From assembly GCA_023132135.1 (NCBI GenBank), contig JAGLYR010000007.1, positions 1 to 8,801 of the forward strand: a DNA stretch of 8,801 nt. The letters are read 5' to 3'. The translations under genes were made by a program, and so were the position numbers. This stretch comes from Candidatus Eiseniibacteriota bacterium. Its GTDB lineage: Bacteria; Arandabacterota; Arandabacteria; JAGLYR01. The notes below the pieces were generated by a model. That model was not told the DNA's origin. It did no database searches and saw nothing but the letters and a program-made list of their open reading frames with translations. This document shows, one piece after another, positions 2 to 8,801 of the stretch. The stretch's first letter is position 1, and the number at the start of each line of letters is the position of its first letter.

Positions 2-730
2 ATTCTTGAAGATGTGGGGTTCTACGAACTGGCAATGGAAGCCATGCGGCCCCTGCTCAAGGGAGCACCTCCTGGGGCTCGGCTGAGGTTCTGGATTCTA
101 GCGAAAAAGGCGGGGGAGTATCGCAAGGCAGCGGACGACATGGAGATCCACTACCAGAAGCAGATTGAGACGCGAGCAGCGGGGTTGCCTCTCGAGTTCT
201 GGAAGCTTGTGTTTCCCCTTCCCCACGAAGAGGAGATTTTCGCTGCCGCCCGGGAGTTCGGAGTGGATCCGCTCTTGGTGGCGGCGGTGATCCGCGAGGA
301 GAGCCGGTTCGACGCGGAGGCGGTATCCTCGGCAGGTGCGGCGGGACTCCTTCAGCTCATGCCGGGGACTGCAAGGGACGAGGCCCGCCGCCTGGGGCTG
401 CGCAGCCGCGGACTCGATCTCTTTGATCCTGCCACGAACATCCGGCTGGGTACCTATTCGCTGGGCCGACGATTAGAACGGTTTCACGGGAATGTGGTAC
501 TGGCACTGGCGGGGTATAATGCCGGAGACCAACGGGCGAAGCGTTGGAAAAGCGAGCTCAAGGGCATGGAACAGGACGAGTTCATCGATCAGATTCCGTA
601 CCGCGAAACGCGGCTCTATATCAAGCGAATCCTGACCAGCTACGATCACTACCGGCGAACGTACGGGGCGGAGTGTCCAGTGAGGGGAGAAATCAGAATC
701 GGATTGACAGAGCCTGGAACACCCCCCTAG
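2..730 (+). CDS. Soluble lytic transglycosylase (Slt-like), C-terminal part; 5' end cut by the window
   Basis: This is the C-terminal end of a periplasmic lytic transglycosylase, which cleaves the MurNAc-GlcNAc bond of peptidoglycan to give 1,6-anhydro ends. The frame is open to the left edge, so the start is missing; the GTG at 14 is only the first possible start codon and I do not believe it. Counting from that GTG, residues 1-65 are helical and resemble the end of the Slt70 superhelical domain. Residues about 70-190 form the SLT catalytic domain: 'REES' with the presumed catalytic Glu96, then 'AGLLQLMPGTA', and 'ALAGYNAG' near residue 165. These are the three hallmark motifs of family 1 transglycosylases, so the enzyme is probably active. 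A tail of about 40 residues follows. The TAG stop is at 728-730 and a strong hairpin begins on its last base. The Slt70 subfamily is inferred; the SLT domain is clear. Confidence 0.93.
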   Translation: MLEDVGFYELAMEAMRPLLKGAPPGARLRFWILAKKAGEYRKAADDMEIHYQKQIETRAAGLPLEFWKLVFPLPHEEEIFAAAREFGVDPLLVAAVIREESRFDAEAVSSAGAAGLLQLMPGTARDEARRLGLRSRGLDLFDPATNIRLGTYSLGRRLERFHGNVVLALAGYNAGDQRAKRWKSELKGMEQDEFIDQIPYRETRLYIKRILTSYDHYRRTYGAECPVRGEIRIGLTEPGTPP

Positions 731-778
731 CCTGGATTATGCATGGACCCCACGCCGGGGTTCATGCATAATCCAGGC
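730..778. repeat. Near-perfect 22-bp hairpin with a 5-nt loop directly after the transglycosylase stop
   Basis: Positions 730-751 pair with 757-778 around the loop 752-756. All pairs are Watson-Crick except one G-T (746/762). The outer arms are CCTGGATTATGCATG and its exact reverse complement. No T-run follows on the + strand and no A-run precedes it, so it is not a standard intrinsic terminator, although a hairpin this strong right after a stop could stabilise or end the upstream mRNA. Alternatives are a palindromic dispersed element or a deletion relic with two transposon ends joined. No obvious target duplication is seen: the flanks cctag and ccgag differ. Confidence 0.85.
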
Positions 779-780
779 CG

Positions 781-828
781 AGAAGCCGAGAAGCCGAGAA
801 GCCGAGAAGCCGAGAAGCCGAGAAGCCG
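781..828. repeat. Tandem repeat: six exact copies of the 8-bp unit AGAAGCCG
   Basis: Six uninterrupted identical copies of AGAAGCCG fill 781-828, with a partial unit (CCG) just before, between the hairpin and the channel gene. A period of 8 is not a multiple of three, and no gene is convincing here, so the repeat is non-coding. Exact identity suggests recent slippage expansion, and copy number may vary between strains. It also serves as the purine-rich arm of the larger inverted repeat described next. Confidence 0.95.
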
Positions 829-909
829 ATGCCGGAGAACGGCATCATGGGGAAAAGCAGTGCGTATTCTGTTTCGGTCTGGTTCTCCGTTTCTCTGCTT
901 CTCTATTCC
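781..909. repeat. Purine-arm / loop / pyrimidine-arm element 1
   Basis: The purine-rich repeat (781-840) is mirrored by a pyrimidine-rich stretch (882-909). CGGAGAAC at 833-840 is the exact reverse complement of 882-889, and GAGAAGC at 820-826 of 897-903; with a small bulge the arms 820-840 and 882-903 pair around a 41-nt loop (841-881). The loop contains GTGCGTATTCTGTTTC (860-875), which resembles the loop core of the elements near 3468 and 8694. No coding function is evident. It lies 15 nt before the channel start and could fold in that gene's leader. Confidence 0.55.
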
Positions 910-923
910 ATGCGAGGCAACGA

Positions 924-1928
924 ATGGAGCTCAAGGAGAGACTTCGGCTCGCCATTGTCCTGCTGGTGGTCATCCTGGTCGGAGGTACGATCGGGTACAT
1001 GACCATCGAGGGCTGGCCACTGCTGGACTCCGCCTATATGACCGTGATCACGTTGGCGTCGGTGGGGTTCATGGAGGTGCACGAGCTTTCTTCGGGCGGT
1101 CGGATTTTCACGATCTTCCTGATTCTGATCGGCCTGGGCACTCTGCTCTATGTGATCAGCACAGTGACGGCCTTCGTTGTCGAGGGTGAGCTGCGCGACG
1201 TTCTGAGGAGAAGAAGAATGGAAAGAAAGATCAAGGCTCTCCGCAATCACTACGTGATCTGCGGATTCTCGCGCATGGGCAGCCAGATTGCTCAGGAATT
1301 GGAGAAGTCGGGCAGGCGATTCGTTGTGATAGAGAAGGATGCAGAGAGAGTGGAGATGCCTGATCACGATGATGAGATCCTGACGGTGATCGGCGATGCG
1401 ACACTCGAGCAGGTACTTCTGGACGCAGGCCTCGAAAATGCTAGCGGTCTCGTGACTGTGCTCGCTCAGGATCAGGACAACCTGTTTGTAGTGCTCACGG
1501 CCCGGCGCCTCAACCCGAAATTGAGAATCGTATCACAGGTGGTGGAGGAGAACTCGGAGGCCAAGCTTCGAAGCGTGGGAGCGGACGCGGTGGTCTCGTC
1601 GCACAAGATAGGGGGGATGCGCATGGCGTCGGAGCTCATCCGGCCTGCAGTGGTTTCGTTCCTCGATGTGATGCTCAGACGCTCGGACGCTGTCTACAGG
1701 GTGGAGGAGGCCACCGTCGGAACCCACTGCGGATGGATCGGGCACACCCTGGGGGACGCTGCGGTGCCGGAACACGCAGATGTGGTGGTGGTGGGATTGA
1801 AACAGGATGGCCTGATTGTCTTCAACCCGAAGCCCGACGTGAAGATCCACGAGAACGACACCATCATCATGATCGGGGCGATGGAGGAAGTCGAGAAGAT
1901 CCGGAAACTGGCGCACAGCGCGGGATAG
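924..1928 (+). CDS. Two-TM potassium channel with cytoplasmic RCK (TrkA-N + TrkA-C) domain
   Basis: The 334-aa protein has MthK/Kch-like architecture. It has TM1 at about residues 9-28, a pore helix at 34-44, a filter region 'TLASVGFMEV' (43-52), TM2 at about 61-86, a basic linker 'RRRRMERK', then an RCK domain. The RCK nucleotide-binding half starts at 'HYVICGFSRMG' (109-119), where GFSRMG is the Rossmann glycine loop, with an acidic residue in 'VVIEKD' to hold the ribose. A TrkA-C half covers about 250-334. RCK channels are tetrameric inner-membrane pores gated by ligands such as nucleotides or Ca2+, which bind a cytoplasmic ring. The filter is odd: canonical TVGYGD is SVGFME here. The ATG at 924 follows GAGG (914-917) by 6 nt. 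It converges with the barrel gene, whose stop lies 5 nt beyond this one, leaving no room for a terminator. Ion selectivity is inferred from the family. Confidence 0.93.
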   Translation: MELKERLRLAIVLLVVILVGGTIGYMTIEGWPLLDSAYMTVITLASVGFMEVHELSSGGRIFTIFLILIGLGTLLYVISTVTAFVVEGELRDVLRRRRMERKIKALRNHYVICGFSRMGSQIAQELEKSGRRFVVIEKDAERVEMPDHDDEILTVIGDATLEQVLLDAGLENASGLVTVLAQDQDNLFVVLTARRLNPKLRIVSQVVEENSEAKLRSVGADAVVSSHKIGGMRMASELIRPAVVSFLDVMLRRSDAVYRVEEATVGTHCGWIGHTLGDAAVPEHADVVVVGLKQDGLIVFNPKPDVKIHENDTIIMIGAMEEVEKIRKLAHSAG

Positions 1929-1933
1929 ACCGC

Positions 1934-3472
1934 CTAAAATGTCGAGAATAGCTTGAACTCCAGGCCATCAAAGGCGGGCTCGTACCGGCACACACCACCG
2001 GCGCAGAGGAAGCCGGCTTGGCGCGTTCCGTACATCAGGCTGGCATAGTGATGCGTGCCGATACTGCGAGTGACGATCCCGTGGAGCCAGTTGGTTCGTT
2101 CCCCGGGATCGGACGTCTGGAGCTCCGACTTGTTGGTATACTCAGCGATCAGGGAAAAGGACAGGTCCACGCTGGGCGAGAATTCTACCAGAAAAAGATC
2201 ATCGTCATACTGACCAATGGAAAGCCCGTCCACGTGCTGGTGCTGGAGCTGGGCCTTGACGCTCATCTCCTCTCGAAACCAGGTTTTCGCTTCGCCGACG
2301 AGGGTGATCTGGTTTTGTTCCGGGCGCTTGGCAAAGTCTACGGCGGCGAGAACCTGCCCGCTCTCGAGCGTCTTTTCCCACTGGAAATACGTCTCCTGGA
2401 ACTGCAGGCGTCCATCCTGATTGTCCGTCTTGCTGCTTGAGATCAGGAAATCCCCCAAGGGGCCGGCGGAAGCCAGGATTTCCACCTGCGTGCCCTTCTC
2501 GTCGTCGCTGTCGAGCTCATGGGGATGGCGGTTGAGGAGAGTGAAGGTGTGCTCCCGGATGAGCGCGGGGGGGAGGTTGTACTCTGTGGCACAGTCGCTC
2601 TGGAGAAACCTGAATCCGCGGTAATCCTTGTGCTCGACGCTGATCCCCACGTGGTCCAGAGCGAGGCTGACAGCGCCATAGAAGCCACGGCCCTGATCGT
2701 GATCCGTGGAGCAGAAGTCCCAGCTTCCGCTGCGGTTTCCCTTCTCAAGGTAGAGGTCGAAGGAGCCGGTTGCGAGCTGGACGCGCCACGTCGTGAGTTC
2801 GTGGGTGCGCGTGCCTGGTTGCCGGGGTGCGCTGTTGGAGAGGTAGCTGAGCCCGGCGCGCAGGAAACCCAGGGGCTCGACGTTGATATCCAGGCCATGG
2901 AGTAGATCCCGGTGCTCACCCCGCTGGTTGAGGGTTTTCCCGGACAGGAGGGTGATGCCCGCGGGGCCGGAGGTCATCTCCAATTTGATCCCCTCGAGGT
3001 TGGAATCCTTCCGGATTCCCCGGTCCTCGTAAGTTCGGAGTGCGAGTCCCCGCCCGAAGAGTGTATAGAAGTTGCCGACGGTGAGTGTCATAGTGCGACT
3101 GGAGTAGTTGAGGTATTTGAACGGGATGCCATGGTTTGTGCTGTCGGGGCTCATCTCGTGAGGGTGGAACATCTCGTAGCGGAGGCCGGCGGAGAGATCA
3201 TCCGACGACCATTCCATGTCGAACCAGTCCTCGAGGATTTCGCGTCCGCCCTCGCGGGCCAGAGAATACTCCAGTTGGTTCCCGCCGCTCCAGTAGGTCT
3301 CCGCCGAGGCGTTCCGGCCGGAAACCAGTGCGATCGAGATTACTGCGGCTGCGAGAACAGCAATCCACCGGCAAGCCGCAGCAAGTGCGCACGCCGGGCC
3401 CGGCCCGGCAATCCGTCTTGCTGCAGAGGGGTGAAAGGAGAAAGGGGAAAGGTGAAACGCCAAGCCTGACAC
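1934..3472 (-). CDS. DUF6029-like outer-membrane beta-barrel protein; start uncertain
   Basis: The mature part of about 450 residues alternates short polar/hydrophobic strands with loops and ends in 'FKLFSTF', a terminal-aromatic strand typical of barrels inserted by BamA. Motifs I associate with DUF6029-type barrels are present: 'VGNFYTLFGRGLALRTYEDRG' in the N-terminal third and, near the end, 'YGTRQAGFLCAGGVCRYEPAF'. This points to an outer-membrane location; the function is unknown. A hydrophobic signal segment 'WIAVLAAAVISIALVSG' with a possible cleavage after 'ASA' is encoded at about 3367-3302. The start is unclear: there is no ATG in any frame between that segment and the TlpA stop at 3606. 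GTG at 3472 (512 aa) is given provisionally, with a GAGGG about 10 nt upstream; GTG 3484, TTG 3463 and ATT 3412 are alternatives. The frame also runs open back into the TlpA gene, which is not taken as coding. It is the last gene of the minus-strand operon. Confidence 0.8.
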   Translation of the reverse strand: MSGLAFHLSPFSFHPSAARRIAGPGPACALAAACRWIAVLAAAVISIALVSGRNASAETYWSGGNQLEYSLAREGGREILEDWFDMEWSSDDLSAGLRYEMFHPHEMSPDSTNHGIPFKYLNYSSRTMTLTVGNFYTLFGRGLALRTYEDRGIRKDSNLEGIKLEMTSGPAGITLLSGKTLNQRGEHRDLLHGLDINVEPLGFLRAGLSYLSNSAPRQPGTRTHELTTWRVQLATGSFDLYLEKGNRSGSWDFCSTDHDQGRGFYGAVSLALDHVGISVEHKDYRGFRFLQSDCATEYNLPPALIREHTFTLLNRHPHELDSDDEKGTQVEILASAGPLGDFLISSSKTDNQDGRLQFQETYFQWEKTLESGQVLAAVDFAKRPEQNQITLVGEAKTWFREEMSVKAQLQHQHVDGLSIGQYDDDLFLVEFSPSVDLSFSLIAEYTNKSELQTSDPGERTNWLHGIVTRSIGTHHYASLMYGTRQAGFLCAGGVCRYEPAFDGLEFKLFSTF

Positions 3473-3530
3473 CCAATAGTGCACCCTCACCCCGGTCACC
3501 TCTCTACTCTCTCCTTTCGCCTCTCGCCAC
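3427..3530. repeat. Purine-arm / loop / pyrimidine-arm element 2
   Basis: Arms 3427-3455 (purine-rich on the + strand) and 3496-3524 (pyrimidine-rich) are reverse complements at 23 of 29 positions, around a 40-nt loop (3456-3495). Read on the minus strand, the order is purine arm, loop, pyrimidine arm, as in element 1, and the loop holds GTGCACTATTGGGTGTC (3484-3468), similar to element 1's core. It sits between the TlpA gene and the barrel gene, exactly where the barrel's start should be. A 12-bp palindrome, GCCGGGCCCGGC (3393-3404), lies just beyond it. It may be a stem-loop controlling the last gene or an inserted repeat. Confidence 0.6.
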
Positions 3531-3605
3531 TGCCGCAATCGTCGGAGCCAAGAGCCTGATATCCGGACCCGCTTCCGGCCGCTGATGAGAAATAGAAATG
3601 CGCTC

Positions 3606-4136
3606 CTAGTCAATTTCGTGCTCCTGGGTGTCCTTGAGCAGACCCAGGACGATCTCCTCCAGCTCTTTCTCTTGGCCTTTTCGGTACCCGGTCCTGGAAT
3701 ACACAATGTCTCCCTCTGAATCAAGGATCAGAGTGTATGGAATTAGCTTGGTCTTGAACTTCCGGGTGAGGTCAGCGTTGGAGTCGGTGAGAACCCGCAG
3801 CGCGTATTTCCTGCTCTTGATGTAGGACTTGACCTTGTTCAGACTTCGGGGCGAATCCTGGGAAACGGCGAGCACCTGCAGGCCGCGATCCTTGTACTCA
3901 CGGTACATCTTGTCGAGGTGGGGCAGTTCCTCAAGACATGGGCGGCACCACAGGGCCCACAGCGAGATGAGAATGGGACCGTCGCCGTACAGGTCCGAGA
4001 GAGTGACCTTCTTATTGCCTAGGTCACGAAGCGTGAAGTCGGATGCCGGGCGGCCCTCCTTTTCGGCTGCACAGACCGAGCCGTATGATACGAGCAGAAC
4101 AATAACCGCGACGACCAGCGGGCGTAGAAAGCGCAT
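3606..4136 (-). CDS. TlpA/ResA-like extracytoplasmic thiol-disulfide oxidoreductase
   Basis: A 176-aa thioredoxin-fold protein of the AhpC/TSA-TlpA-Redoxin group. Residues 1-24 form a signal peptide or anchor (basic 'MRFLRP', hydrophobic 8-18, possible cleavage after 'VCAA'). 'PASDFTLRDLGNKKVTLSDLYGDGPILISLWALWCRPC' is the typical entry to the fold, and the redox pair is Cys64-Arg-Pro-Cys67. 'LIPYTLILD' carries the cis-Pro (133) that normally faces the active site. Such proteins reduce disulfides in periplasmic clients, classically cytochrome c maturation apoproteins, but no cytochrome gene is seen here. ATG 4136 was chosen because GGAGGG lies 7 nt upstream; a GTG at 4151 would place that motif inside the gene. 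It starts 16 nt after the previous gene's stop, so it is co-transcribed. The likely clients are its cysteine-bearing secreted neighbours, which is an inference. Confidence 0.93.
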   Translation of the reverse strand: MRFLRPLVVAVIVLLVSYGSVCAAEKEGRPASDFTLRDLGNKKVTLSDLYGDGPILISLWALWCRPCLEELPHLDKMYREYKDRGLQVLAVSQDSPRSLNKVKSYIKSRKYALRVLTDSNADLTRKFKTKLIPYTLILDSEGDIVYSRTGYRKGQEKELEEIVLGLLKDTQEHEID

Positions 4137-4152
4137 CAGAGTTCCCTCCACT

Positions 4153-5550
4153 CTACTTCAGAAGAACGAGTTTTGCCGTGAGAGCCTGGTTCTCGTCCAA
4201 CGTCACTCTGCAAGTGTACACGCCGCCGGCCACCGCTCGACCGCAGTGGTCGAGTCCGTTCCATTCGACGGACACCGGGCTGCCCAGGGATGCTTCCACC
4301 GGGATGGATACAACGCGCCGACCGCAGATATCAAAGATGTCCACACGTACGTCGCCCGCGCCTGGAATGGCAAAGGAAATGGTCACCGTGGGATTGAATG
4401 GGTTTGGATAGCAGCGGAGACCGGTCAGTCCGCGGACCACAGGGAACTCGCCCTCCACGTTTCCGACGGCCACCAGCCAGTCGTAGATGGCGGCGGCAAG
4501 ATCCGTCCGATCCGCGGGAGTGCTGATGCCCTCAAACCCGAAGGCGAGGTAGGCGAGCCTGTAGCCGTCCTTGTCCACCTTGACTCCTGCAGGGCCGCTC
4601 CTGCTCAGATAGTTGAAGATCACCGACGACCCGTCGCCGTTGGCCGCGATTTCGCTTGGTGCGGTCTGGTTACCGGCTCCGTCGCCGCCTGAGATGCTGA
4701 AGCTCATGCCATCCGAGATGGGGTCGCCGCCAACGCCGGTGATGTCGAGGATGCCGCTGTCGTCGGCCACATAGGTGGCGCCGAAGCGGTCTTCATAGAA
4801 TGCTTTCGTCTCAACCGAGTAGTCGGGGGATGCAGCATCGCACATGCCGTAGCCGATGTCCTGACCGGTGAGGAAGAGGCGTCCGCCGTCGTCCAGAAAG
4901 GCTCCGATCGCGAGCCTGTCCGCAGCCGACAGGGCGGGTGTAGCTTCTCCTGTCATCCAGGCCACCACAGGGAATGTCAGGAGATCAGCCGAAAGCACAG
5001 GTTCCAGCTCCCGCGGCCAGACGCCCCACGTGCGAGAACCCTGGAAGGCAGCGGACAGGTAATCCTGGTACTCCTGCCCGCCGTCGTCGTCCACAATGAG
5101 CACTTCAATCCCGTCCGTGACCACCACCAGTGTGATCGTTTTCTTCTTGCTGGGATCAAGGACTGAGCGGGCCATCAACTGGACGACTGCTCCGCCCTCG
5201 TCCGCGACGGTGTCGAAATTGATCCCGATCGTGGTGCTGTTGCCTGCGCCCAGCAGCACCTGAAGGCTGTCGACGTTGTCCTGCTGACATCCTCCCTCAA
5301 CACATATCGGAGTGAACCAGTTGTCCGGTCTGTAGATGATCGTGCGAAGAATATCGAAACGGTCGCCTTGGGCTCCGGTGTTTGTCAGAACAGCCTCCAG
5401 CTCCACGAACCAGTTGACCTGGGTGATATCCACAGGGTTGTCCGTGGTGAACTCCAGATTGGCCGCGCGGGTATCGGAAACCCAGGAACACACCAGCGCG
5501 GAACAGATCGCGACGACGAGCAACGGCAGACAGCGTTTGCAATGGGACAT
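4153..5550 (-). CDS. Secreted multidomain protein with C-terminal FlgD/Ig-like (sorting-type) domain
   Basis: A 465-aa exported protein. Residues 1-30 are a signal peptide ending '...DTRAA'. Residues 31-145 look like an Ig-like beta domain with 'NWFTPICVEGGC' (Cys83, Cys88). Residues 148-360 begin 'VLIVDDDGG' and include 'LGAFLDDGGRLFLTG'-style strands and 'YLAFGFEG'. This is reminiscent of a class I glutamine amidotransferase-like or ThuA-like flavodoxin fold, but no catalytic Cys-His pair is apparent, so it is probably non-enzymatic. Residues 375-465 are a FlgD/Ig-like domain: 'CYPNPFNPTVTISF', 'VDIFDICGRRV', 'GVYTCRV', ending 'KLVLLK'. That tail is common on secreted or surface proteins of FCB-type bacteria and resembles type IX sorting domains. 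The mature chain has seven Cys (83, 88, 237, 380, 409, 436, 447), four of them in the tail. ATG 5550 has AGGAGG just upstream; that motif overlaps the previous gene's stop, giving tight coupling. No specific function is assigned. Confidence 0.85.
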   Translation of the reverse strand: MSHCKRCLPLLVVAICSALVCSWVSDTRAANLEFTTDNPVDITQVNWFVELEAVLTNTGAQGDRFDILRTIIYRPDNWFTPICVEGGCQQDNVDSLQVLLGAGNSTTIGINFDTVADEGGAVVQLMARSVLDPSKKKTITLVVVTDGIEVLIVDDDGGQEYQDYLSAAFQGSRTWGVWPRELEPVLSADLLTFPVVAWMTGEATPALSAADRLAIGAFLDDGGRLFLTGQDIGYGMCDAASPDYSVETKAFYEDRFGATYVADDSGILDITGVGGDPISDGMSFSISGGDGAGNQTAPSEIAANGDGSSVIFNYLSRSGPAGVKVDKDGYRLAYLAFGFEGISTPADRTDLAAAIYDWLVAVGNVEGEFPVVRGLTGLRCYPNPFNPTVTISFAIPGAGDVRVDIFDICGRRVVSIPVEASLGSPVSVEWNGLDHCGRAVAGGVYTCRVTLDENQALTAKLVLLK

Positions 5551-5560
5551 AGCACTCCTC

Positions 5561-6571
5561 CTAGCGCCGGGCGGGCGTTGTGCCGAATGTGGATCCCGAC
5601 TGCAGTACATGCTTGGTAGAACGCGATTGGATGAAGACTACGGTTTCAATCTCGCTTTCATCCCAGCCGGCGTCAAGTGTTCGTGAGCGCCAGAAGCTAA
5701 GGGTTTCCCCGTACACTGGAGAGAAAGCCTGCCCCGAGGCGTTGGGCATGAGATCGCGAACGACGTTGTACGAAGTCTCCTCGGCAGGGCCCAGGACTAC
5801 CACAACCTCCGTCTCGACTACCCCGAACTGGATCACGAGATCGTTCAGCATGGGACAATCCAGGGGTGCGACCCTGGCCCCAACGCTGTACCGGAAACCG
5901 TCCAGCGTGTCGCTCACCTCGATCCAGAAATGAGGGGGGGTGGCAAGGGCCTGTTGGTACATGTTCTGGAGCGTCGCTTCCGTTGGAATGCTCATGGTTG
6001 AGATCCCATCGAAGACAATGGTTGGGGCCACCGAGATGGAATAGAACGCAATCCGTTCGCCGTGCAGGGCAGGGTTCTCGACATACACGGGATCTTGAGA
6101 AGCAGGCCAGTTTGTCCGGTACCCGAAAGTCAGCACGTGATCGGCCCCCAGGCTTTCCTGGAAATCGCGCATAAGAATCTCCGCCGGTCCACATGGCTCA
6201 CACCGGACATTCCCGAAATGCTCAATCAGAACTGTCCGCGACGCGCCCGTCGCTCCAGTAAGGAAGAGGCAGAACTCCGCCGTGGCCCCGCGGCCCTTCT
6301 CGATGTTGACCTCGCTCTCGGCCGGGAGCGCCTCGTGGTTGTCCAGGAACACGCGCACAGCGTGGGCACCGGTCGTCAACTCCAGCGTGTCGGGTGTGAC
6401 CCGACCCTCGCGGAGATCCCCGTCAATTTCGATGGACGCCCCGGGCGGTTCCGAGAAGACGGCCAGGAACCCCGTGGCAGGGGCCTGCACGGGGTCCTCC
6501 TGACCGCAACTGCAAGTGAAGATCAACGCTGCAACCGACGGTGCGCACAAGCTGCGCCACCTGTAAGCCAT
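5561..6571 (-). CDS. PEGA domain + Omp28/thioredoxin-like envelope protein (probable lipoprotein)
   Basis: A 336-aa protein. The N-terminus 'SVAALIFTCSCGQED' is a short signal ending in Cys20/Cys22, probably a lipidated cysteine, though it is not a textbook lipobox. Residues about 32-100 form a PEGA domain ('GFLAVFSEPPGASIEIDGD...TPDTLELTTGAHAVRVFL'), a small surface beta fold. From about 112 there is an Omp28-like thioredoxin fold: 'VLIEHFGNVRCEPCGPAE' with Cys124-Glu-Pro-Cys127, and 'SISVAPTIVFDG' with the candidate cis-Pro183. The C-terminal third is a beta-rich domain ('YNVVRDLMPNASG', '...VVFIQSRSTKHVLQSG') usual for Omp28 relatives. A cell-envelope redox or scaffold role is inferred. 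ATG 6571 was chosen because GGGAGGA lies directly upstream and the residues before it in the longer frame are the shadow of the previous gene. It starts 13 nt after that gene's stop, and 10 nt separate its own stop from the next ATG. Confidence 0.87.
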   Translation of the reverse strand: MAYRWRSLCAPSVAALIFTCSCGQEDPVQAPATGFLAVFSEPPGASIEIDGDLREGRVTPDTLELTTGAHAVRVFLDNHEALPAESEVNIEKGRGATAEFCLFLTGATGASRTVLIEHFGNVRCEPCGPAEILMRDFQESLGADHVLTFGYRTNWPASQDPVYVENPALHGERIAFYSISVAPTIVFDGISTMSIPTEATLQNMYQQALATPPHFWIEVSDTLDGFRYSVGARVAPLDCPMLNDLVIQFGVVETEVVVVLGPAEETSYNVVRDLMPNASGQAFSPVYGETLSFWRSRTLDAGWDESEIETVVFIQSRSTKHVLQSGSTFGTTPARR

Positions 6572-6584
6572 AGTCCTCCCTAAC

Positions 6585-7228
6585 CTAGCGCAGAAGCACC
6601 ATCTTCCTGGTCGCGACAAACCCTCCTGTTTCCAGCGTGCAGAAGTACACACCGCTGGCCACGGAATGCCCGGCGTTGTCCAGACCATCCCAGTGGACGG
6701 CGTGCTCGCCGGTTTCCCGAACGCCATTGGCCAGCATCCGGACCGTCTGGCCGCGAACGTTGTAGACGTTCAGGCGCACATGGCCCCGGGCCGGTACTGA
6801 GAACCTGATCTCGGTGTCGGGGTTGAATGGGTTCGGAGTGTTCTGAGCCAGCCACGCGGGCCGGATCAGACTTTCAGATTCGGCCACGTCTGTGGTGCCG
6901 AACAACCAGTCAAGCACGCGCTCCATCACAGTCGCCTGATCAGGGGCATTGTCAATAGCCTCGAAACCAAAGGCAAGGTAGACCGTCCGGAACGTACCGG
7001 ATCCATCCACCAGACTCGCTGGAAGTCCACTGCGTCGCCTTGGGAGATTGTGAAGCTCTCCCCATTGGCGTCAGGAACCATGTCGCGCATGATGTACATG
7101 TGCTTGCGGAAAGCATAGGGTCTGCGCCATTCGACGGCCAGACACTGGAAGGTGAGGGTGGCCTTCGAGTCGACGTCCCCGACAGCTATGACCCGGGTGT
7201 CCACGTAGACGCGAGACCACTTACGCAT
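6585..7228 (-). pseudogene. Decayed mosaic gene: Omp28-like fragment fused out of frame to a FlgD/Ig-like C-terminal domain
   Basis: Two overlapping frames form one apparent relic. The first frame starts at ATG 7228 behind a strong GGGAGG and encodes 100 aa to a stop at 6926. It has no signal peptide, and 'HMYIMRDMVPDANGESFTISQGD' aligns with 'SYNVVRDLMPNASGQAFSPVYGE' in the adjacent Omp28-like protein, so it is the C-terminal part of that family without its thioredoxin half. The second frame has no RBS-backed start and is open from about 7070 to TAG 6585. It encodes 'SGLPASLVDGSGTFRTVYLAFGFEAID', matching 'SGPAGVKVDKDGYRLAYLAFGFEGIS' of the neighbouring secreted protein, then a full FlgD/Ig-like domain ('NTPNPFNPDTEIRFSVP' ... 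'GVYFCTLE' ... 'KMVLLR'). The frame switch lies near 7015-7035. I read this as one or more deletions joining two tandem genes. A sequencing indel or a programmed frameshift is possible, but would not explain the missing thioredoxin half. Confidence 0.7.
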
Positions 7229-7321
7229 AATTCCTCCCAAGGCTAAAGAAACTCCTTTGACCGACGGGTGAACAAAGCACTCGATCCAGCCCCGTCCCGC
7301 CAAAGGTGCAATGGTAGAACC
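7229..7321 (-). other. Untranslated leader of the envelope operon
   Basis: About 90 nt separate the predicted transcription start (about 7321) from ATG 7228. The leader ends in a strong ribosome binding site (GGGAGG, 7233-7238). It contains GGTCAAAGGAG-type purine patches but no clear terminator, riboswitch fold or convincing leader peptide. Confidence 0.4.
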
Positions 7322-7327
7322 ACATAG

Positions 7328-7356
7328 ATTATATCATTCGGTGTGGCATTTGTCAA
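7328..7356 (-). promoter_or_regulatory. Consensus sigma-70 promoter for the envelope operon
   Basis: Read on the minus strand, TTGACA (7356-7351) is separated by exactly 17 nt from TATAAT (7333-7328). Both hexamers match the housekeeping consensus perfectly. Transcription would start near 7321 and run through the pseudogene, Omp28-like, secreted, TlpA-like and barrel genes. The promoter sits between the aminotransferase stop (7376) and the operon, with no operator palindrome that I could see, which suggests strong, largely constitutive expression. Confidence 0.9.
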
Positions 7357-7375
7357 TCGTAGTCCGGATGGGGCG

Positions 7376-8614
7376 CTATTTCATCGCGGTTTTTTCCTGG
7401 GTGGGCTCGCGGCCGCCGCGCTCCTGGTTGTACACTTCGACACCTTTCCTGAGGATTCGCATAGCGCGGCGGAGCGTTTTTTCTTCCAGCACATACGCGA
7501 GACGGACTTCGTCCCGACCCATCCCGGGGGTCCCGTAGAACCCCGCAGCGGGCGCGACCATTACCGTCTCATTGTCCACATGGAAGCTCTCCAGCATCCA
7601 GCGGGCAAACTCGTCGCCGTCGTCGATGGGCAGCTTGGCCACCAGGTAGAACGCGCCCTTCGGTTTGAGACAGACGGCGCCGGGGATTTCCATGACTCCC
7701 TCGTGACAGATGTCGCGCCGGCGCTGGTACTCGGCAATGACGCCATCGATGTAGCTGTCCGGGGTGTCGATAGCGGCCGCAGCGGCTGTCTGCTCGACGG
7801 TGGCCGGGCACAGGCGCGCCTGGGCGTACTTCATGAGGGACGCGATGAGGCTCTGATTCCTGGAGACGAGACACCCCACGCGGGCCCCGCAGGCGCTGTA
7901 TCGCTTGGAAACGCTGTCCAGCATGATAGCGTGGGGCTCGATCCCATCCAGGTGAAGAACGCTGGTGGGCGTGTCGCCGTCATAGGCGAACTCGCGGTAG
8001 ACCTCGTCGGACATGAGGAACAGATCGCGCTGCAGCGCGATGCTCTTCAGCATTTCCATTTCCTCACGGGTGTAGATGACGCCAGTGGGGTTCCCCGGAT
8101 TGCTGAAGAGAATGCCAACCGTCCGGTCCGTGATCCTGGATTCGATCTGTTCCATCGCGGGGAGATGGAATCCGTCCTCTGCCCGGGTTGTCAGGGGCAC
8201 AATCCTGATTCCGGCCATCGACGCAAATCCGTCGTAGTTCGTATAGTACGGTTCCGGGACGATGACCTCGTCTCCGACGGACCCGGTTGCAAGAAAGGCG
8301 AACAGGATGGCTTCGGACCCGCCAATGGTGACCAGGATGTTTTCGGAGTCCACGTCGATTCCGTGGCGCGCGTAGTAGCGGACCAGCGCCCTCCGGTACT
8401 CGGCAAGGCCGGCGCTGTGACCGTAGGCCAGGACCTTCTCGTCGAAGCGGCGAATGGCATCGAGCATTCTGTCGGGCGTGGGGATGTCGGGCTGGCCGAT
8501 GTTGAGGTGAATGACCTTGCGACCCTTTTCCCTGGCAGCCTCGGCAATGGGAACCAGCTTGCGAATGGGAGACGCCTGGACCTTCTGTGCTCTCTCCGAG
8601 ATCTCTGGTGCCAC
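7376..8614 (-). CDS. PLP-dependent class I/II aminotransferase (aspartate aminotransferase-like)
   Basis: A 412-aa fold-type I aminotransferase in the cytoplasm that transfers an amino group between an amino acid and a 2-oxo acid through pyridoxal phosphate. Visible motifs: 'ASPIRKLVPIAEAAREKG' and 'HLNIGQPDIPTPD' at the N-terminus, as in the AspB-like group common in Bacteroidetes; 'YGHSAGLAEYR' (64-74); 'GGSEAI' (98-103); 'NPGNPTG' (172-178); 'SDEVYREFAYDG' with Asp203 and Tyr206; 'DSVSKRYSACGARVG' with Schiff-base Lys237 and phosphate-binding Arg245; and 'RDEVRLAYV' with Arg371 for the substrate carboxylate. All catalytic residues are present and the length is normal. GTG 8614 is preceded by AGGAGG with a 7-nt spacer. 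It is separated from the operon by 147 nt and that operon's own promoter, so it is probably a separate unit. Substrate preference (aspartate or another amino acid) cannot be settled from sequence. Confidence 0.95.
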   Translation of the reverse strand: MAPEISERAQKVQASPIRKLVPIAEAAREKGRKVIHLNIGQPDIPTPDRMLDAIRRFDEKVLAYGHSAGLAEYRRALVRYYARHGIDVDSENILVTIGGSEAILFAFLATGSVGDEVIVPEPYYTNYDGFASMAGIRIVPLTTRAEDGFHLPAMEQIESRITDRTVGILFSNPGNPTGVIYTREEMEMLKSIALQRDLFLMSDEVYREFAYDGDTPTSVLHLDGIEPHAIMLDSVSKRYSACGARVGCLVSRNQSLIASLMKYAQARLCPATVEQTAAAAAIDTPDSYIDGVIAEYQRRRDICHEGVMEIPGAVCLKPKGAFYLVAKLPIDDGDEFARWMLESFHVDNETVMVAPAAGFYGTPGMGRDEVRLAYVLEEKTLRRAMRILRKGVEVYNQERGGREPTQEKTAMK

Positions 8615-8656
8615 GGGTTCCTCCTCTTTCGGGATTCACTAGACGCAGAACCCCCT

Positions 8657-8685
8657 ATATTAGCGCATCGCGGTGGGGGGGGCAA
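8657..8685 (-). promoter_or_regulatory. Possible sigma-70 promoter of the aminotransferase gene
   Basis: On the minus strand TTGCCC (8685-8680) and TAATAT (8662-8657) are 17 nt apart, giving partial -35 and -10 matches about 43 nt before the GTG start. The spacer includes a run of G on the + strand; the full run of eight is at 8675-8682 and touches the -35. The -35 box overlaps an arm of repeat element 3. Confidence 0.4.
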
Positions 8686-8760
8686 GGAAAAGGGTATCAG
8701 AACAAGTCCCCTCGCGCTCTCTCGCCCTCGCCTTGTCGCCCTTTTTGCCCTTTCGCGCCT
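8681..8760. repeat. Purine-arm / loop / pyrimidine-arm element 3
   Basis: Purine-rich 8681-8694 (GGCAAGGAAAAGGG) is approximately complementary to pyrimidine-rich 8739-8749 (CCCTTTTTGCC) across a loop of about 44 nt. 8711-8760 is a degenerate repeat of CTCGCC/CGCCCTTT-like units. On the minus strand the loop carries GGGGACTTGTTCTGATAC (8711-8694), related to the cores of elements 1 and 2. The remaining bases to the right edge (8761-8801) hold nothing I can assign. Confidence 0.45.
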
Positions 8761-8801
8761 TGGTGTCCTGGCGCACTTGCCGCAGCGCTTGCGTCTTGTG
8801 G

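Follow-up and report, generated by a model that had tools for sequence, protein, structure and literature searches.

Two families of lineage-specific spacer repeats with hairpins and complementary tandem-array arms in one bacterial genome

Abstract

The 8,801-nucleotide stretch of DNA analysed here (the window) carries, at two of three spacer sites, copies of two dispersed, lineage-specific repeat families, A and B, under one wider layout: a hairpin, the tetramer AGAG, a purine-rich tandem array, a core and a complementary pyrimidine-rich array. The third site, C, carries a short core (AAGGAAAAGGGYATCA) that is present at about 125 places in the genome, is related to the core of A and here adjoins an octamer array with no stem. 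On balance the A and B elements are probably mosaic, REP/MITE-like repeats that are non-autonomous and have dispersed among the spacers of a single lineage, with arrays that slip and arms that are re-copied.

Materials and Methods

The window lies on contig C313 of a metagenome-assembled genome of 345 contigs and 3.4 Mb, and the analyses of A, B and C apply to this one genome. Its contigs resemble short-read assemblies that break inside repeats, and genes are simple ORF calls. A sample of 141 stretches (given L-numbers) totalling 1.53 Mb was used, part of it picked for containing matches. The stem at each site was assessed by an inverted-repeat score and a folding z, each against 300 dinucleotide shuffles. 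Hairpins of 40-57 nt with an outer stem of at least 8 bp were listed throughout the sample (n = 1092), a listing considered to be unbiased. Similarity searches covered 40 related genomes and the B model was run on ten, seven of them of the same class.

Results

Sites A, B and C in the window

Inspection of the ORFs confirmed that sites A (781-909), B (3427-3530) and C (8681-8760) all lie in spacers between genes, as the original prediction had stated. The same prediction gave all three sites a purine-rich arm, a loop and a complementary pyrimidine-rich arm, and this was found at A and B but not at C. The stem of site A had an inverted-repeat score of 17 against 8.3±1.4 for shuffled sequences (0/300 as good, folding z of -3.6) and that of site B scored 17 against 7.2±1.35 (0/300 as good, folding z of -2.7). 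No stem above chance was observed at site C, where the score of 7.5 compares with 6.35±1.1 and 52/300 shuffles were as good (folding z of +0.15). The arms at site B are 30 nt long and 80% complementary with a 40-nt loop between them. Tandem Repeats Finder reported a perfect 8-bp array of GCCGAGAA, repeated 6.6 times, at 777-829 in site A. The palindrome ahead of this array has arms of 22 nt with 95% complementarity and belongs to the same palindrome family found across the genome. The features of the three sites are collected in Table 1.

Table 1. Features of the repeat elements at sites A, B and C, in window coordinates.
Site	Feature	Position	Strand	Remarks
A	Hairpin, palindrome GCCTGGATTATGCATGG...CATGCATAATCCAGGC	730..778	+	49 nt; head of A element; CTAG before it (727-730)
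A	Purine array of CGAGAAGCC octamers	779..829	+	Expanded in window copy
A	Group A core CCGGAGAACGGCATCATGGG	832..851	+	Aligned across subfamilies A1, A2 and A3; loop similarity p<=0.001
A	Pyrimidine arm TCTGGTTCTCCGTTTCTCTGCTTCTCTATTC	878..908	+	Complementary to purine array; 0/300 shuffles equal
A	Remnant of A tail (..GGCAACGA)	909..923	+	Alignment with L136
B	Bipartite hairpin GCAGCAAG..GCCGGGC.GCCCGGC..CTTGCTGC	3378..3424	+	47 nt; kept in B copies
B	Purine heptad array, begins AGAG (AGAGGGGTGAAAGGAGAAAGG..)	3425..3456	+	
B	Group B core ACGCCAAGCCTGACACCCAATAGTGCACCCTCACCCCGGTC	3457..3497	+	Kept in nine copies; recognisable in B2, B4 and B5
B	Pyrimidine array	3498..3525	+	Inverted-repeat partner; 0/300 shuffles
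B	Tail ..GATATCCGGACCCGCTTCCGGCCGCTGATGAGAAAT..CTCCTAG	3526..3609	+	Common to part of the B copies and to other repeats (alignment)
C	Core repeat AAGGAAAAGGGTATCAGAACAAGTCCCC	8684..8711	+	16-mer count
C	Pyrimidine octamer array (TCGCGCTC..., reverse strand of GCGAGGGC type)	8712..8760	+	Without complementary arm

The three loops had been said to share a core, quoted as GTGCGTATTCTGTTTC, GTGCACTATTGGGTGTC and GGGGACTTGTTCTGATAC. Such a core was not supported, with a three-way p of 0.91, pairwise values for the quoted cores from 0.19 to 1.0 and values for whole loops from 0.82 to 0.91 against shuffles. A and B do have in common the order hairpin, AGAG, array, core, array, which would favour a single undescribed family comprising all three sites, but the chance-level likeness of the loops and the missing stem at site C both speak against it. 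A covariance model built from the three oriented sites and scanned against the genome, the check proposed at the outset, recovered strongly only the B copies and one other GAGAAGCC copy, of type A1, and missed the main A family. A single family with a shared loop core is therefore hardly credible and was rejected in the form first proposed; A and B belong to separate families and C is a different repeat.

Families A and B in the genome

The recurrent layout itself was confirmed: 191 kb of spacers contained 17 purine-arm stem-loops (score >=12), whereas shuffled sets contained 0.67 each. The expectation of dispersed spacer repeats in high copy number was confirmed as well. A covariance model of the A family matched 21 places in the genome at E<1e-4, with at least three arm subfamilies, the B model gave 11 matches at E<1e-10, and the 16-mer of the site C core was found at 125 places against 5 for the reversed control. 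The motif at the end of the A palindrome gave 257 matches and its control none. Copies of 150-210 bp that are nearly identical number dozens.

The fullest A copies start with CTAG and a palindrome of 44-49 nt. AGAG then leads into the purine array, after which come the core GGACAAGAGCATCATAGAAACACC (the group A core is also given as GGAnAAnGGCATCAT), the pyrimidine array and the tail; the element closes with half a palindrome in inverted orientation and a further CTAG. One 212-bp element, L158 10849-11061, has both ends present as CTAG-bounded inverted ends. The window copy is of subtype A1 and has a single sister, 94% identical, on contig C182. That sister retains the right end ..TTTATGCATAATCCAGACTAG, which is missing in the window copy, where the start codon of the following gene cuts the element short. 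The purine array comprises 6.6 octamers in the window copy and about 2 in the C182 copy, with the 3' arm the same in both. At the other end of the window copy (727-730) the TAG of the element's CTAG is also the stop codon of an upstream lytic-transglycosylase-like ORF, which ends at 730. Several contigs terminate within an A element.

The array of site C matches other places at 81-91%. Elsewhere copies of its core alternate with arrays of heptads, among them AGTCCCT and GTGCTCC. The sequence common to the cores of A and C, GGAnAAnGGYATCA, lies off the loop core first quoted and has the opposite orientation in site C. At L118 8195 the shared core links a heptad-array/core repeat directly with an A2-type right half, and this fusion supports homology of the cores. 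Heptad arrays of many sequences are found in the spacers; one of them, from L151 9581 onwards, is a long degenerate GAGAGCCGAAAGCC array with no complementary arm. The array period is 7 in A2 and B and 8 at site A, and the degenerate heptamer arrays of the spacers are of the STRR/SSR type.

The B family has nine copies in the sample, with diverged subfamilies besides. In L146 8267-9157 (contig C249) a 299-bp unit made up of the truncated 5' part of a tRNA-Glu gene and a B2-type stem-loop element is repeated three times; immediately after the intact tRNA-Glu gene of L146 (8223-8298, minus strand) comes a further element of B type. A second abundant set of repeat ends, CTAGCCTGCATTTCTCACCAG, whose 14-mers reach 54 copies in the 1.53-Mb sample, occurs genome-wide (for example L101 1460-1736). 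These ends are distinct from the palindrome family, start with CTAG as it does, and in some B elements also make up the end of the tail.

A layout common to unrelated hairpins

The tetramer immediately following the 1092 hairpins was most often AGAG (35 cases, the next commonest having 16), counts which are inflated by copies of the same family. AGAG starts 16 of the 20 purine-rich 28-mers that follow hairpins, and only 2 hairpins were followed by pyrimidine-rich sequence. The AGAG layout is found with unrelated hairpins, namely GCCTGG.. (A), GCAGCAAG.. (B), GGCGGCAAA.. (B4) and GGCCACAC.. (B2), the hairpins of B5 and B6 being close variants. Comparison of the loops gave two groups, mostly with p<=0.003. 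The first contains A1, A2, A3 and the cores of sites C and D, the links of site C being weaker (p of about 0.01-0.03), and the second contains B, B2, B4 and B5. No loop match between group A and group B was seen in these comparisons. In one chimeric element, L167 5634-5899, the left half is of group A and the right half of group B, the two meeting inside the loop at CAC-TTCAC, which shows that halves have been exchanged between the families.

The elements might instead be passive products: slippage would have lengthened short purine arrays, occasional template switching would have given rise to the inverted copies, and recombination alone would have moved them around. The many different heptad arrays in spacers and the free variation in array length would agree with this, but neither the fixed order of parts and the fixed AGAG junction in unrelated hairpins nor the dozens of nearly identical long copies would be expected, and we regard a passive origin as rather unlikely. 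A further, quite improbable alternative is a new class of mobile repeat in which inheritance resides in the layout itself, with hairpin, AGAG, purine arm, core and pyrimidine arm in this order. Slippage would build an arm anew out of arbitrary heptads, re-copying would transfer it to the opposite arm, and some enzyme would recognise the one shape that unrelated arms and hairpins share.

Covariation of palindromes and arms

The flanking palindrome of the A elements showed strong covariation. Among 23 distinct copies pairing was 95.9% and both sides had changed in 10 of the 20 pairs, a result equalled in 0/500 shuffles. Two palindromes combine arms that are each known as perfect haplotypes in other copies, as would be expected of hybrids awaiting repair. 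Covariation in the inner arms of A was limited to two pairs changed on both sides between A2 and A3, and the stem pairs of the nine B copies had none. With the subfamilies mixed, A arms fit their own partner better than the partners from other copies (p=0.01); no such tracking was found within A2 (p=0.77) or within B (p=0.11). The arrays change length without compensation, as in the 6.6 units of the window copy against about 2 in C182. Complementarity is thus held across subfamilies and is not tightly tracked copy by copy. The claim that the arms vary while shape and core persist is correct between subfamilies of A and of B but not for the three sites as one set.

This pattern of covariation and length suits slippage with occasional re-copying of arms, or exchange between copies. 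The original prediction offered structural selection or re-copying from a template as explanations; this was judged to be the right pair of ideas, and the data fit re-copying or exchange and selection on pairing alike without separating them. Selection on RNA pairing would keep the arms complementary if the elements were transcribed structured RNAs or terminators at the 3' ends of genes and tRNAs. Three diverged members of group B, namely B4, B5 and B6, start directly at the 3' ends of tRNA-Glu, tRNA-Arg and tRNA-Glu genes respectively, a position that fits a terminator role as well, and the covariation in the palindrome and the A inner stem is in keeping with it. Against such a role, the hairpins have no T-run after them, A and B elements lie in mixed orientation between codirectional, convergent and divergent genes, and Rfam gave no match in the window and only tRNAs in four related loci. 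Moreover, sequence-identical copies at unrelated loci require a spreading process. An origin as RNAs or terminators seems unlikely.

Dispersal and possible mobilisation

The dispersal of the copies, their common layout and their restriction to one lineage point to non-autonomous mobile elements. Copies of A and B are found at unrelated loci and CTAG adjoins the hairpin or the tail end in many of them. The tetranucleotide at the foot of the hairpin was CTAG in 26 of 41 cases, GTAG in 8, CCAG in 5 and GCAG in 2, in a search that was seeded with a related motif. Matched, terminally inverted ends were found in seven elements in 1.53 Mb, most copies having one end only, and the seven gave no clean case of an empty site or flanking duplication; the one junction match was not clean.

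Similarity searches with A and B gave no full-length match in the 40 relatives, the only hit being a 41-base partial match to the B hairpin region in one genome of another phylum. In the seven genomes of the same class neither family was found by similarity and the B model returned nothing. The one isolated match of the B model among the ten relatives, on both strands of one genome from a different phylum, was taken as a chance purine/pyrimidine hairpin. A literature search by repeat sequence gave only unrelated chance matches.

If the A and B elements are indeed REP/MITE-like mobile repeats, the leading candidate for a transposase recognition site is the foot of the hairpin, where CTAG adjoins one side and AGAG the other. 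The arrays would lengthen and shorten through slippage, whereas complementarity of the hairpin and arms may be kept mainly via template switching between arms in replication, probably assisted by recombination between copies. Only two leads to a mobilising enzyme were obtained, which speaks against mobility. The sole Y1 match covers 62 residues, a fragment within an ORF of 89 codons on contig C145, with none of these palindromes in the 1.3 kb read around it, and no RAYT (Y1) gene flanked by such palindromes was found in the genome. Y1/RAYT was accordingly rejected as the mobiliser. The other lead is an intact IS1380-type transposase on contig C139, near which no exact copy of the palindrome end motif was seen.

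The last 41 bases of the window (8761-8801), which are unique sequence, are identical to L172 19520-19560 on contig C345. Beyond them C345 runs into an A2 element and the window runs into site C. The C313/C345 junction may be a recent insertion polymorphism; it may also reflect a strain mixture, a misassembly or an assembly branch.

Discussion

The A and B elements provide a natural set of paralogous stem-loops within one genome in which the sequence of the arms turns over while complementarity and core persist. Template switching has been described as a process that creates and maintains hairpins. Whether this process or selection preserves base pairing has been asked of RNA hairpins (PMC8794818), and the present set allows the question to be tested directly. 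The elements also call for caution, in that compensatory changes in repeats are by themselves no proof of a functional RNA. In a little-known lineage they show spacers densely set with a mosaic of lineage-specific repeats, at which assemblies break.

Comparison with known systems

Heptanucleotide arrays with pairing arms are known from two systems. The stem P6b of the cyanobacterial tRNA-Leu intron, a single intron stem at one locus, has degenerate heptads on both arms that pair and differ in copy number (PMC3488679), as here, but A and B are dispersed elements. In Xanthomonas, convergent GGGAATC heptad repeats form 70-75 pairs per genome (PMC4692102). These resemble the present repeats in being purine-rich spacer arrays, often in inverted pairs able to form stems; they use one heptad, whereas the present arrays draw on several heptads and octads and are coupled with a hairpin and with a conserved core.

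Some elements neighbouring the core repeat carry a motif, CCCTCTCCC-n-GGGAGAGGG-TA-GGGTGAGGG, that is nearly identical to the BoxC/PIT/TMECO intrastrand triplex motif of E. coli (PMC4666352, Table 1). It adjoins the AAGGAAAAGGGCATCA core and AGTCCCT heptad arrays at L109 9225, L119 2824, L136 2667 and other loci, in a host lineage far from E. coli. Reading of the sequences of sites A, B and C showed that the motif is absent from them.

Bacterial MITEs such as ERIC, NEMIS and RUP (PMC3733652) are similar to A and B in that the latter are non-coding, about 200 bp long, located in spacers and partly inverted at their ends, as in the L158 element. Few A and B copies have both ends, internal tandem-array arms are unusual for MITEs, and for the parent transposase and target duplication there are candidates only. 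The palindromes of REPs and REPINs are tagged with GTAG and CGTC (PMC3733652, PMC3116915). Like them, the present palindromes are short, dispersed in spacers, often paired, lineage-specific and non-autonomous, and their foot bears a tetranucleotide (34/41 with CTAG or GTAG in the motif-seeded search). The A and B elements differ in having much longer arms and a cargo of a fixed AGAG and a purine array, a core and the complementary array, and no intact RAYT was found. No known kind fits them in full; in their mode of working they resemble REP/MITE-type elements whose arms are, unusually, tandem arrays.
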